Positions 3,201 through 10,697 of a DNA stretch of 10,697 nucleotides are shown in pieces. The DNA is from Candidatus Altimarinota bacterium (GTDB lineage Bacteria > Patescibacteriota > Gracilibacteria > GCA-2401425 > JAJOLG01): assembly GCA_021129445.1 (NCBI GenBank), contig JAJOLG010000004.1:3250-13946 (forward strand). The letters run 5' to 3'. Under the pieces are notes generated by a model. That model searched no databases. It saw nothing but the letters and a program-made list of their open reading frames with translations, and was not told the DNA's origin. The position numbers and the translations under genes are program-made. The stretch's first letter is position 1, and each line of letters starts with the position of its first letter.

Positions 3201-5639
3201 ATGAAAACAAAAACAAAAACATTAAAGGCTTTAATTTGATTGATGGTTGCATTTGTATTTTCAACAAATGTATTTGCCGGATTTTATATTTCAGTAGATA
3301 ATTCTTATGCTTGAAAATCAACAGAAATTATTACTTCAAATGTCTGAAAAAATGTAAAAGCAAAAATTTCAATTGAAAAACCTGATGGGCAAAAAGTTTT
3401 TATAAATGCAAAATCTTGAAATGATTGAAAAATTTATTCAGAAATTTTGTGATATCATACAAAAAAAAAATGAAAATATAATGTTGAAATTAATTTGGAC
3501 AATTGAGATTCTGCGGAAGAAAATTTTATAGTTTACCCATGAAAATTTTCTATTTCAAAATCAAAATTTTTTGCATCTGAAAAATCCATTTCTGCCAAAG
3601 TTGACAAAGCTGATATTTTTGTCAAAGCTGTCGATAGGTATTGAAATCCTATTAAATGACAGAAAATTACAATAATTTCTTCGAGAACAGAAGATAAATT
3701 TTTAAATTGAAATGAATGTAGAACTGACACTGATTGACAATGTATTTTTTCTGTAAAATCTTCAAAAGAGTGAAATTCAACTTTTACAGCAATAAATTTA
3801 TCAGAAAATAAAGTTTTTAATCAAAGGGTAAAAATTATTTTTTACACACCAGAAGAGAAAAATGCAGTTGGGTGAAATCCATATTTGGCAAGTTTGCTTG
3901 ATATAAATGATTGATGATTGCTTCTTAATGAAAATCAATTTTGAGTTATTGATTGATTTAAAATTGAAACTTCTGATCAAATTGTGTTAAATTCTGATGA
4001 TAATTTTATGAAAATTTCTGCAATTGATGTAGATTGAAATATTGTAAAAGATTATCAATGAGAGATTCAAATTATGATTCTAAATGATGAAAATGCAGTT
4101 TTGCCATGAGAGTGAAAATATAAATTTAGTAAAGAGGATCAATGAACTCATGAGTTTTCGCTTTCAACGGTTTTTACAAGATCGTGAAATACTAAAATTG
4201 AAGTTTACGAATTAAATAATTGAGAAATAAATTTTGATGTTAAATGAGTAAAAAGTTTGATAGTTGAAGAGAAACAAGAGCAATCTTTAAATTTAAATGA
4301 AAAAGAATTAAAAATTATTTCTCCATCAAATTGAATAAAATTGTGAAATAATTTAGTTCAAGTTTCGTGAAAATGAACACCTTTTACGGATTTAAAAATT
4401 TATGTCAATGAAAAAAAGGAGTGAGATTTAATTCCGGTTGATAAAGATTGATTTTTTTCTGTAAAAATAAATTGATTAAGAGAGTGAGAAAATAAAATTC
4501 ATGTGACAGAAAATCAGTGAAATAAAAGAAGTTCAAACGATGTAAGTGTATTTATCGACACAACTGAGCCGGTTGTGACAGATTTAGAAATTTTTCCAAA
4601 AGAGATTGAAACCGAAGAAAATTTTAATTTAAAAATTTATTCTGAAAAATGACTTTCTTCTGTAAAAACTTTGGTTAATTGAAATATTGAAGTTTTAAAA
4701 CCGGTAATTTGAGAAATGTGAGCTTATGAGGCGAATATTTTATGACCTTCTGAGTCTTGAATTTATCCAATTGATGTGATTTTAGTGGATTCTATGTGAA
4801 ATAAATGAACTTATAAAAATCAATGAGAATTAAAAGTTAAAGAAAAAATAAAATTACCGGCTGATAAAATTGATATGATAGATTCAACAATTGTTTGAAA
4901 TACATTAAAATTAAAATGGCAGGTGCCAAATTCTCAAAATGAGATTAAAAATTACGAAATTTATTTGTGAGAATCTGAAAAATCTCTGAAATTATTTTGA
5001 ACTTCAAAAGTAAATGATGTCAATATTGAGAATTTAAAATGGGAAACACAATATTTCATTTGAATAAAATCAGTAAATGAGTTTTGAATGAAATCGGAGA
5101 TGTCAGACTTGAAAATTGTTAACATTTGAAAAGATCCAAAAAAACCACAAGAGCATGGTTCGGCATTGACAGAGTTTTTTAACAAAAAATCATTAACTTG
5201 ATTTGCATGAAATTCCAGAGTGACTTTAAAATGGACAAATTTATCATCAGATTCTGTAAAATACAAGATTGAATATTGAATTGATAAAGATTTTTTGGAA
5301 GAAACAATTTTCACAAAAGATAATGTGCAAACATATCATATTCAGGATTTAATCAATTGACTCGATTATTATTTCAGAGTTTATTGAGTTGATGAAGATT
5401 GAAATCCGGTTTCTAAATGAACAGAGATTTTAAAATTAACACCGCAATGAGTTGCACAAGTTCAATATTGATGATTTGTTGATAAAAATTCTTATAAAAT
5501 TGATGATATTGATCAAGTTGTAAAATCGAAAAATTGAAAAAATACAAAAACTTGACCAGAGTTATATTTTCTTTTGGCAATTGCACTTTTACTTTGAGAT
5601 TTTGCTCACAGAAAATTATTTGCAAGAAGAAAAATTTAA
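3201..5639 (+). CDS. Surface protein with Ig-like and fibronectin III domains, C-terminal anchor, 812 aa
   Basis: The frame is continuous for 812 codons with TGA as glycine (about 64 TGA against four GGN by hand count). A signal peptide MKTKTKTLKALIGLMVAFVF is cleaved probably after A26 (NVFA|GF). Residues about 135-210 resemble an invasin-type Ig domain (VKAVDRYGNPIKGQ). About 370-455 is a bacterial Ig repeat (ISPSNGIKLG ... VSGKGTPFTDLKIYV) ending in IDTTEP, followed by another Ig-like segment to about 550. Two fibronectin III-like modules occupy about 552-640 and 655-755. A hydrophobic helix at about 787-803 (YFLLAIALLLGDFA) is followed by HRKLFARRKI, so the protein is probably anchored with its bulk outside, as expected of an adhesin or envelope protein. 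No Shine-Dalgarno site. The C-ending codons GCC, GAC and GTC cluster at 3591-3632, where the 9-base repeat lies. Domain boundaries are approximate; ligand unknown. Confidence 0.9.
3591..3632 (+). repeat. RYTGMCARA repeat run inside the surface-protein gene
   Basis: TCTGCCAAA (3591-3599) and GTTGACAAA (3600-3608) are adjacent 9-mers, followed by a degenerate copy containing GTCAAAGCTGTC. They are read in codon phase 0 (Ala/Asp-Lys). The codons GCC, GAC and GTC used here are uncommon in the rest of the gene. Confidence 0.5.
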
Positions 5640-5648
5640 AAAGTTGAA

Positions 5649-5675
5649 ATTGACAAAACTGACAGAACTGCCAAA
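5649..5675 (+). repeat. Three tandem RYTGMCARA 9-mers after the surface-protein gene
   Basis: ATTGACAAA, ACTGACAGA and ACTGCCAAA follow one another without a gap, beginning ten bases after the stop. The last copy is also the left arm of the terminator that follows. Confidence 0.7.
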
Positions 5676-5692
5676 AATTTTGGCAGTTTTTT
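5666..5692 (+). terminator. Intrinsic terminator of the surface-protein gene, built from the 9-mer
   Basis: AACTGCCAAAA (5666-5676) pairs perfectly with TTTTGGCAGTT (5678-5688), and a T run extends to 5692. The arms contain a direct (5667-5675) and an inverted (5679-5687) copy of the 9-base repeat. Confidence 0.85.
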
Positions 5693-5745
5693 AATTTGTG
5701 TTTGATTGTTTTTTAATTATTTTATTTAAAATAATTTTAAAAAAA

Positions 5746-6723
5746 ATGACAATAAAAAAATTTTTATCAGATAATAAAAAAAAATTTTCTCAACAGGATT
5801 TAGAATTTTTTTTACAAAAAGTTTTAAATTGTGATAAAAAATTTTTATTTTTAAATGAAAATTTTTCAATTCCAAAAGAAAAAATTTTGGAGCTAGAAAA
5901 ATTTTTAGAAGAAAAAAAACAATGATTTTCAGTTGCATCAATTATTTGAGAGAAGAATTTTTATTGAAGGAAATTTTTTATTGATAAAAATGTACTTGTG
6001 CCAAGGGAAGAAACAGAAGATATGATTGCTTTTTTGCAAGGAAAAATTTGATGAGAATTTTACTTACCTGAAAAGAAAAATTTTTTAGATATTTGAACTT
6101 GATCTGGTGTTATTCCAATAACTTTGATTTTAAATATGTTGGAAAAAGAAACTGAATGATTTTTCGATTGAAATTTTGAAGTTGTTGAAGATATTTTATG
6201 AGATATTTTTATTGATGAAGATGAGAAAAATGAGTTTAATAAAGGTGTAAGAGCTGATATTGTTACTGAGTTTTATTCTAAAAATATTTTTTATGCATCG
6301 GATATTTCTGAAAAAGCTTTAAAAGTTGCAAAAAAAAATGCAAAAAATTTTTGAGTAAAAATAAAATTTTTTCAATTAGACTTATTAAAAAATTTGCCAA
6401 AAAAATTAAAAAATGAAGGAATTTTTTTGATAACTGCTAATTTACCATATGTTGAAGAAAAAATCAAAACTGACAAAACTGCCAAAGTTGACAACTGAAT
6501 TTCAATGGAGCCAGACTTGGCACTTTATTCATGAGAAGATGGTTTACAGCATTATTTACAGCTTTTTGAAGAATTAAAAGATGTTAAATTTAAATATTTA
6601 ATAATGGAAATGGCGCCGTGGCAAACTGACAAAATTGCCAAATTATATTCTTATTTTTGAAAAACTCAAGTTTATTTGGATCTTGGTGGAAAAAAAAGGG
6701 GGGTTTTTTTAAAAAGTCAATAA
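5746..6723 (+). CDS. prmC: Release factor glutamine methyltransferase PrmC/HemK, 325 aa
   Basis: PrmC methylates the glutamine of the GGQ motif in peptide-chain release factors, using S-adenosylmethionine. After a Lys-rich N-terminal helical domain (about 1-75) comes ASIIGEKNFYGRKFFIDKNV and then LVPREETE, matching the family block YxxGxxxFYG...VLxPRxETE. The SAM-binding motif DIGTGSG lies at 115-121, with its first two glycines encoded by TGA. The substrate motif is NLPY at 232-235 (family consensus NPPY), followed by EPDLALYSGEDG. Length is in the usual range or slightly long; part of the excess is TDKTAKVDN at 242-250, which coincides exactly with three 9-base repeats. The ATG at 5746 matches the family start; an in-frame GTG at 5698 would only add a hydrophobic AT-derived tail. 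No Shine-Dalgarno site. In a UGA-recoded lineage RF1 is expected to be the substrate, because RF2 would read UGA as stop. Confidence 0.92.
6469..6495 (+). repeat. Three tandem 9-mers inside prmC
   Basis: ACTGACAAA, ACTGCCAAA and GTTGACAAC are contiguous and in codon phase 0, encoding TDK, TAK and VDN. They sit in the variable loop after the NLPY motif. Both GCC alanine codons of prmC fall in copies of this motif (here and at 6625-6642). Confidence 0.7.
6625..6642 (+). repeat. Two tandem 9-mers inside prmC
   Basis: ACTGACAAA (6625-6633) and ATTGCCAAA (6634-6642) encode TDK and IAK in codon phase 0, near the C-terminus of PrmC. Confidence 0.5.
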
Positions 6724-7032: not shown

Positions 7033-8850
7033 ATGAGTGTAGAAAAATTTAGAAAATTGTGACTTTCAGAAGAAATTTTGAAAGCTTTGGAGGAAAAATG
7101 ATTTGAAAATCCATCGGAAATTCAGGAAAAAACAATTCCTCTTTTATTAAATTCAGATAAAGATGTTTTAGGTCAAGCACACACTTGATCGTGAAAAACA
7201 GCTTGTTTTGCATTGCCATTAATTCAGAAAATTGAAGCGAATTCAAAAAATATTGAAGCCTTGATTTTGGCTCCAACCAGAGAAATTTCAATTCAAATTA
7301 CAAAAGAAATCAACTCTTTTAAATGAGCGAAAAAAATTAAGATTGTAAATCTTTATTGAGGTCAATCGATTACAAATGAAATGAGAGATTTAAAAAGATG
7401 ACCAAGTATTGTGATTTGAACTCCTTGAAGAACAATGGATCATTTGAGAAGAGGGACTTTGAAAATTTGAAATATTAAATATTTTGTTTTGGATGAAGCT
7501 GATGAAATGTTGAATATGTGATTTAAAGAAGATATTGAAACTATTTTGGAGTCTTGTCAACAAGATAAAAAAATGATTTTCTTTTCTGCGACTATGCCAA
7601 AAGCGATTTTGGATATTGCGAAAAAATTTATGAAAAATCTTGAAATTGTGAAAGTTGCTTGAAAGCAAGTGACAAATGATAAAATTCAGCAAATTTATTA
7701 TCAAGTTCAGAGAAAAGATAAATTTCAAGCTTTGTGTAGAATTGCTGATATTCATCAGGATTTTCATTGAATTGTATTTTGTAGAACGAAAAATGATGTT
7801 GATGAGGTGGTTGTAAATTTGCAGGCGAAATGATATTTTGCAGATTGACTTCATTGAGATGTAAAACAGTCTTTGAGAGAAAAAATTCTTGCAAAAATGA
7901 AGGATAAAAAAATAAATATTTTGGTTGCGACTGATGTTGCAGCGAGATGAATTGATATTAAAGATTTGACACATGTAGTAAATTACTGAATTCCAGATGA
8001 TTGAGAGGCTTATACTCACAGAATTTGAAGAACATGAAGAGCATGAAAAACTTGAATTGCAATTACTTTTGTAACTCCTGCGGAAAAAAGAAAATTGATG
8101 AATATTCAAAGGACGATTAAAACAAATTTGGAATTTTGAAAAATGCCAGAGGTAAAAGAAATTTTAAATTCAAAAAAAGAAAAAATTTTAGAAGAGTTTA
8201 AAAATCACTCATGAATTGAAAATAAGTTATTTGTTGATTTAGCATGAAAAATTTTAGAAAAATCAGAAGATTCAAAATTAGTTTTAGCTGCAATTTTGGA
8301 AAAATTTTATTGAAAAGATTTTTCTTCTGATAGATATTCTGCGACAAATAATACATGATGAGCATTTTGATGAGATAGAGATTTTTGAAGAGACTGATGA
8401 AGAGAAAGATGAGAAAGATGAAGATGACCTAAAAAACTTCAAGATTGAATGACAAGATTATTTTATGCAAAATGAAAAGATGATTGATTAACACCAAAAG
8501 AAGTTGTGGATTTTGTGCAAAAAAATATAAAAATTGAATGAAATAAAATTGATGATATTTGAGTTTTTTGAGAATTTACATTTTTAAATCTACCAACAGA
8601 AAAAGCTGAAGAGCTGATAGATAAAGCATGATTTGAAGATTGAAGAAATATTTTGGTAAAAGCTAAAAAAAGAGAGCCGAGAGAATGATGATTCTGAGGA
8701 GATAGATGATGACAAAGATCTTTTAGGTGAAGGTGATGAGACAGATGATGAAATAGAGGTTTTTGATGAAACAGACGAGGTGAGAAAAAATGATGAGGAA
8801 AATGATTTTGATGATTTAAAAAGATGAATAAAAGAAAAAGTAGAGATTAA
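7033..8850 (+). CDS. deaD: DEAD-box RNA helicase, DeaD/CsdA/DbpA type, with RGG patches, 605 aa
   Basis: This is an ATP-dependent RNA helicase, a family used in ribosome assembly and in remodelling mRNA in the cold. In order it shows the Q motif FENPSEIQEKTIP (about 24-36), motif I AHTGSGKT (49-56), Ia PTREI, TPGR, DEAD (154-157), SAT (185-187), GIVFCRTK, ATDVAARGIDI and HRIGRTGRAGKTG (329-341). Most of the glycines in these motifs are TGA. A DbpA-like RNA-binding domain follows at about 473-550 (TRLFYAKGKDDGLTP). It is flanked by two Arg/Gly/Asp-rich patches, about 437-466 and 552-600, the second being a typical RGG tail. The ATG at 7033 gives a normal N-terminus; no Shine-Dalgarno site is present. 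It appears monocistronic, with its own promoter, long leader and terminator. Family is certain; DeaD rather than DbpA or RhlE is a best guess. Confidence 0.93.
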
Positions 8851-8861
8851 AATTTTTTAAA

Positions 8862-8904
8862 ACTGCCAAAAAAATGTCAAAACTGCCAAAAAATTTTTGG
8901 CAGT
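8862..8904 (+). repeat. 9-mer copies after deaD: two direct, one inverted
   Basis: ACTGCCAAA occurs at 8862-8870 and 8882-8890, with ATGTCAAA between them, and TTTGGCAGT is inverted at 8896-8904. Either direct copy could pair with the inverted one. Confidence 0.65.
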
Positions 8905-8908
8905 TTTT
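8881..8908 (+). terminator. Intrinsic terminator of deaD, built from the 9-mer
   Basis: AACTGCCAAAAA (8881-8892) pairs with TTTTTGGCAGTT (8894-8905), and the T run continues to 8908. The stem core matches the terminator at 5666-5692. An extra upstream AACTGCC at 8861 could form an alternative stem. Confidence 0.85.
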
Positions 8909-9610: not shown

Positions 9611-10697
9611 ATGAAAAATACAATAATATTTTTATCTATTGTTGTATTTTTTTGATTAAATCAAAATATTTTTGCATATTCGCAAGAAGTTATTTTTTCT
9701 GAAATTCAGCGGATGTGAACTACTAATTCGTCATTTGATGAATGGATTGAGTTAAAAAATTTATCAGGAAATGATATTGATTTAAATTGACGGGTGGTTG
9801 TTTCAGAGGATTGAACTCCAAATATTTCCTTGCAAAGAGTGATAAAATCTAATTGATATTTCCTCTTAGAAAGAACAGATGATAATTCTGCTTATCAGGT
9901 AAAATGAGATTTGTTTTATTCTTGATCTTTGGAGAATTGATGAGAAGTTTTATTATTAAAAAATAAAAATTGAGAGATTGTTGATATGGTTGATTGATGG
10001 AGTGCTTGAAAGTCTTCCGGTAGAGTTTCAATGTTGAGAGATGAAAATTTAAATTGGGTTGATTGAATTATGGATTGAGATCCAAAGTCAAGTTTTTCTG
10101 AAAGTGTTAATGGTAATCAAGATTGATGAGGTATGATTGAAAATTGAAATGATGAAATAAATTGAAACTGACAAAACTGACAGAGTTGACAAAGTGATCA
10201 AGACTCCGATGGAAATGTTTGAAATGATATGCAAGATCAGTCGGACACTTGAAATAGTGGGTGAAGTCAAGGTGATCAAATTTTAGATATTTCAAGTTTT
10301 GATTTTGACTTTCAATCCCCTTCTTATATTTTAAATAAAGAAGATAAAAATCAATCTGAATTTTTTTGTGATAAATCAAAAAGTGAGTGTAAAATTAATT
10401 TTAATTTTGAAAAAACTTTTGAAAATTCACCTGATTGATATTCAAAATCAAAATTTTATTGTAAAATAAAATTTTGAGATTTAAGCACAGATCAAGAAAA
10501 TAAATGTAATCCAAACACTGTCATTTTTCCAATTTGAGAAACAAAAATTGAGTTTGAAGTTTTTTTAAAAGAATGAAATGTTTTGCAATTTAAAAAGGAA
10601 ATTACAATAAAAAATATTGAAAGTCAAAGTAGTCAAAACTGACAAAATTGACAAAACTGACAAAATAACTCAAGTGCCCCTGTGTCTAAAAGAAAAG
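9611..10697 (+). CDS. Secreted lamin-tail-domain protein, 3' truncated by the window
   Basis: The frame is open for 362 codons (TGA as glycine) and leaves the window. A signal peptide MKNTIIFLSIVVFFGLNQ is cleaved probably after A22 (IFA|YS). Residues about 27-150 form a lamin-tail domain (LTD): VIFSEIQRMG, FDEWIELKNLSGNDIDLNG, then SLENGGEVLLLKNKNGEIVD and a closing SGRVSMLRD strand. LTDs are beta-sandwich modules often found on exported bacterial proteins, including surface proteins and nucleases. A Gly/Asn/Gln/Asp/Ser-rich linker (about 165-230) contains the 9-base repeat read as GQN units. A Cys-containing segment follows (FFCDKSKSECKINFNF), then a second GQN tract near 345. The C-terminal function is not visible. 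No Shine-Dalgarno site; the ATG is 15 bases after the relic's stop codon. Confidence 0.87.
10167..10193 (+). repeat. Three tandem 9-mers in the LTD gene
   Basis: ACTGACAAA, ACTGACAGA and GTTGACAAA are contiguous. They are read in a different codon phase from the copies in prmC and the surface-protein gene: here TGA-CAA-AAC, giving Gly-Gln-Asn or Gly-Gln-Ser. Confidence 0.7.
10638..10664 (+). repeat. Second run of three tandem 9-mers in the LTD gene
   Basis: ACTGACAAA, ATTGACAAA and ACTGACAAA are contiguous and again read as Gly-Gln-Asn triplets. Two degenerate AGTCAAA copies precede them. Confidence 0.7.

Follow-up and report, generated by a model that had tools for sequence, protein, structure and literature searches.

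The hairpin that follows the surface-protein gene in this stretch of DNA is most probably an ordinary Rho-independent terminator to which a locally confined family of 9-bp repeats lends its left arm, and not a DNA uptake sequence. The stretch analysed (the window, 10,697 nt) comprises bases 3250–13946 of one contig, in a genome of 672,893 bases and 77 contigs. We surveyed a 20-contig sample (322 kb of 673 kb) and ran pattern searches over the whole genome. Long open frames were found in all 20 sampled contigs only when TGA was read as an amino acid. Translation with code 25 (TGA = Gly), which is established for Absconditabacteria/SR1 (PMC8080830), gave sensible proteins in the window. In addition to rnpB and four tRNAs, the window contains the following genes and terminators:

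3201–5639, + strand: gene whose 812-aa product (code 25) is a secreted or surface protein carrying Ig-like and fibronectin type III domains (Pfam Big_1, fn3, Glucodextran_B)
5664–5692, + strand: terminator T1, with a 12-bp stem, a 3-nt loop and a T6 tract; the third 9-mer of array 1 serves as its left arm
5698–6723, + strand: prmC-type methyltransferase gene, of the release-factor glutamine methyltransferase family, following T1
7033–8850, + strand: gene for a DEAD-box RNA helicase, followed by T2
8879–8907, + strand: terminator T2, a 13-pair hairpin with the stem of T1, separating the helicase gene from tRNA-Gln
9611–10697 of the window: gene for a lamin-tail-domain protein with Asn/Gly/Gln-rich linkers, running off the contig end right after the last 9-mer array

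The C-terminus of the 812-aa surface-type protein consists of a hydrophobic segment followed by a basic tail (TGPELYFLLAIALLLG..RRK). In the single same-order genome and in most other class genomes searched, the prmC homologue lacks any internal TGA, so those relatives seem to follow the standard code, as opposed to the TGA = Gly of the window's genome.

T1 starts 24 nt past the stop at 5639, on the same strand as the surface-protein gene. Its arms (5664–5675 and 5679–5690) form 12 pairs, 11 Watson–Crick and one G–U, around an AAU loop; four of the 12 are G–C pairs, and the U-tract (TTTTTT, 5687–5692) comes directly after the stem. The fold has a predicted energy of −14.0 kcal/mol (z −4.1), and none of 200 shuffles was as stable. 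By its stem, U-tract, fold energy and position after the stop, T1 fits an intrinsic terminator like the others of this genome, and from these features we infer that it ends transcription of the surface-protein gene as an ordinary Rho-independent terminator. RNA polymerase would pass the stop codon, make the 12-bp hairpin and the U-tract 24 nt further on, and release the transcript before reaching prmC.

The sequence-only reading had described three 9-mers passing directly into a perfect hairpin, a terminator made from the repeat. The three units (ATTGACAAA, ACTGACAGA and ACTGCCAAA) do lie directly adjacent at the positions claimed and run into the hairpin, whose right arm is formed by the inverted copy TTTGGCAGT (5679–5687). 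The pairing is perfect across the ten loop-proximal pairs and not across the full 12, one of which is G–U. The idea of a terminator built from the repeat holds as well: T1 qualifies by sequence as an intrinsic terminator, and its left arm is the final unit of the tandem run. T1 shares with other intrinsic terminators the G+C-containing stem, the short loop, the U-tract and the place just after a stop codon; it differs from them in that its left arm ends three tandem 9-mers and that a terminator with the same stem lies 3.2 kb away.

A hairpin built from inverted 9-mers had also prompted the proposal that, in the manner of Neisseria, a DNA uptake motif has been put to use in T1 as a terminator. 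The Neisseria DUS and Haemophilus USS terminators likewise have a stem made of a short motif and its inverted copy (PMC1852404, PMC2397512), and a relative with UGA as glycine is thought to import DNA via ComEC, ComEA and pili (PMC8080830). A check for competence genes, suggested along with the proposal, gave a divided answer: ComEC and several T2SS/T4P-type (T2SSE-type) ATPases are encoded, whereas a search for the ComEA-type HHH_3 domain returned no match. The presence of ComEC and pilus-type ATPases makes competence plausible, yet nothing links it to the 9-mer motif.

The frequency and arrangement of the motif argue against this proposal. Uptake sequences in Neisseria and Pasteurellaceae number 927–1,965 per genome listed and lie within 17–57% of the best terminators (PMC1852404). 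Where those species have hundreds, the whole 673 kb here holds two AACTGCC...GGCAGTT hairpins, both in the window (T1 and T2). The motif AACTGCCAAA occurs 11 times in the 673 kb, with seven copies on the window's contig, and no 8–10-mer in the 322-kb sample was over-represented as an uptake sequence would be. The sample contained 46 terminator-like intergenic loci, 35 of them no more than 150 nt past a gene end (median 19 nt). Enrichment of AACTGCC/GGCAGTT stems, put forward as a test of the claim, did not appear: a CTGCC/GGCAG stem was present in two of the 46 (again T1 and T2), and the stems of the other 44 were diverse and lacked this core. Close same-strand pairs of uptake sequences are almost nonexistent, with 0–1 ++ pairs per genome in real USS (PMC1852404); the 9-mer arrays, in contrast, are all on the + strand, and their copies regularly stand in same-strand tandem. 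An uptake sequence would be expected in similar number on both strands. At the scale sampled, an uptake sequence is ruled out by the genome-wide counts together with the survey of terminators and the arrangement of the copies, and we regard its reuse as a terminator as highly improbable. With this falls the tempting claim of an uptake-sequence system in a bacterium with UGA as glycine, which, if true, would have been surprising.

The second terminator, T2, was absent from the sequence-only reading and, like T1, is preceded by related 9-mers. The T2 region (8862–8907) also carries a perfect spare copy of the left arm, ACTGCCAAA, 20 nt upstream, which could pair alternatively with the right arm. 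T1 and T2 have the stem and the preceding run of related 9-mers in common, and align poorly outside these. Among 1035 pairs of terminator loci in the sampled 322 kb, they form the only pair with identical 10-nt arms. They are also the only sampled terminators with an upstream unit that resembles the left arm at 7 or more of 9 positions in the exact 9-nt register. Identical arms combined with exact-register upstream units, found at no other sampled terminator, indicate that the arrangement is more than chance.

Six tandem arrays of the repeat unit, AYTGMCARA, lie between 5649 and 10664 (about 5 kb). The arrays consist of two to three or more units each (18–36 bp), and occur in two coding frames and at two intergenic sites:

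5649–5675, + strand: array 1, ATTGACAAA (5649–5657), ACTGACAGA (5658–5666) and ACTGCCAAA (5667–5675), after the stop codon; period 9, 3.3 copies
6469–6494, + strand: array 2, ACTGACAAA ACTGCCAAA GTTGACAAC inside prmC, read T-D-K T-A-K V-D-N
6625–6642, + strand: array 3, ACTGACAAA ATTGCCAAA inside prmC, where homologues too have Q-T/A-E/D..
8862–8890, + strand: array 4, ACTGCCAAA-AA-AATGTCAAA-ACTGCCAAA before T2, with a 2-nt spacer
10167–10193, + strand: array 5, ACTGACAAA ACTGACAGA GTTGACAAA in the lamin-tail-domain gene, N-G-Q N-G-Q S-G-Q in code 25
10638–10664, + strand: array 6, ACTGACAAA ATTGACAAA ACTGACAAA in the lamin-tail-domain gene, N-G-Q three times

A search of the 673 kb for the tandem 9-mer with at most one mismatch found no array outside the window's contig. 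The exact tandem pattern had five matches in its own genome and was absent from all 352 other class genomes searched, and among 9-bp-period arrays of the 20 sampled contigs no other unit was common to two arrays. An AT-rich genome could in principle produce such a resemblance between arrays by chance and through low complexity. At 15/18 identity the dispersal test does not discriminate, as on several other contigs some 18-mer is present in 6–8 scattered copies. A 9-mer with comparable enrichment exists on one other contig, where nine of its ten copies lie within about 0.8 kb. When the search was restricted to 18-mers at 16/18 identity with at least six G/C, however, only the window's contig had copies across several genes and intergenic gaps. 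Rare codons in the copies and the identical 10-nt arms of T1 and T2 are further points against chance, which we consider an unlikely explanation. The local 9-bp repeat is real and of modest interest.

The coding copies are read in two frames, as TDK–TAK in prmC and as NGQ in the lamin-tail gene. In the prmC copies, GAC encodes Asp in three of three cases and GCC encodes Ala in two of two, although these codons make up 11% of Asp and 6% of Ala codons, respectively, genome-wide. TDK/TAK sites elsewhere in the sample are never spelled ACTGACAAA or ACTGCCAAA. In the NGQ units of the lamin-tail gene, AAC accounts for four of five Asn codons, compared with 2 of 35 elsewhere in the gene and 9% genome-wide. 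Such rare codons suggest a common DNA rather than a common protein sequence, and this codon evidence points to the copies in prmC and the lamin-tail gene reflecting shared DNA. Array 2 occupies a loop of prmC, bounded by NLPY and EP, which exceeds by several residues the length found in 10 homologues; these are distant, making the exact gap uncertain. The usual NGQ spelling in the genome is AATTGACAA, used at 10 of 20 NGQ/SGQ sites elsewhere, so the lamin-tail arrays alone could be low-complexity Asn-Gly-Gln linkers. A pure protein-level repeat of NGQ linkers was rejected, as it covers the lamin-tail gene at most and neither the other-frame prmC arrays nor the intergenic ones.

The restriction of the motif to one contig would also be expected if the stretch had been acquired from, or belonged to, another organism with the 9-mer genome-wide. 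The contig nevertheless looks native, because it carries the only rnpB and prmC of the bin, uses code 25 like the other contigs and has a typical tetranucleotide composition; for the same reasons a misbinned contig is unlikely. The absence of the tandem motif from the 352 class genomes also speaks against a foreign source, as does the comparison of two exact patterns with viral contigs, which gave no match and on which a phage origin was rejected. We therefore judge a foreign origin of the stretch to be quite improbable. A scan of genome contigs for relatives recovered a distant helicase homologue only.

A functional reading, in which the arrays are iteron-like binding sites for a regulator or an RNA-binding protein acting on the gene cluster, draws on their single strand, their common 9-nt spacing and the usual number of three units; the rare codons would suit it too, as they suggest a constraint on the DNA or RNA sequence. 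Four of the six arrays, however, lie inside genes and are scattered over 5 kb, they hold no conserved position relative to promoters, and no known motif was recognised in them. Binding sites of this kind thus seem improbable.

The preferred reading, an ordinary terminator with an arm from a local repeat family, leaves a puzzle: within a single 5-kb stretch, one 9-bp unit is present in coding DNA of two frames and in two terminator regions. The left arm of T1 is the unit that closes a short tandem run from the local AYTGMCARA family on the + strand. Local slippage or short-homology copying most likely spread the repeat, and one unit was probably captured as a terminator arm, or arose from one, both at T1 and at T2. 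Taken together, the sequences point to a short DNA repeat that spread locally and happened to furnish a terminator arm. The direction may have been either way, with a terminator arm seeding the arrays or the arrays supplying the arm. A more far-reaching version, in which the unit is a DNA element of mostly three-unit blocks that spreads locally, inserting in frame into genes and providing terminator arms by a copying process so far undescribed, appears doubtful. The region offers a small example for the question of how streamlined genomes come to contain spreading short repeats.

Rickettsia palindromic elements are short dispersed palindromic repeats, about 100 bp or more in length, whose insertions into genes keep the reading frame. 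The repeat described here resembles them in occupying both coding DNA, in frame, and intergenic DNA. It differs in its 9-bp tandem units, its array length of 18–36 bp, its non-palindromic sequence and its confinement to 5 kb, and nothing indicates that it is mobile. Bacterial minisatellites and low-complexity linker repeats are similar in their frame-keeping 9-bp period and in the N-G-Q linkers, whereas the unit in the window is also found in another gene, in another frame and at two intergenic sites. As a contrast, we used another stretch (L020:12087-12948), where many Asp-rich repeats (GATACTGATTGAGATTGA) are confined to about 0.9 kb and resemble an ordinary in-gene repeat.
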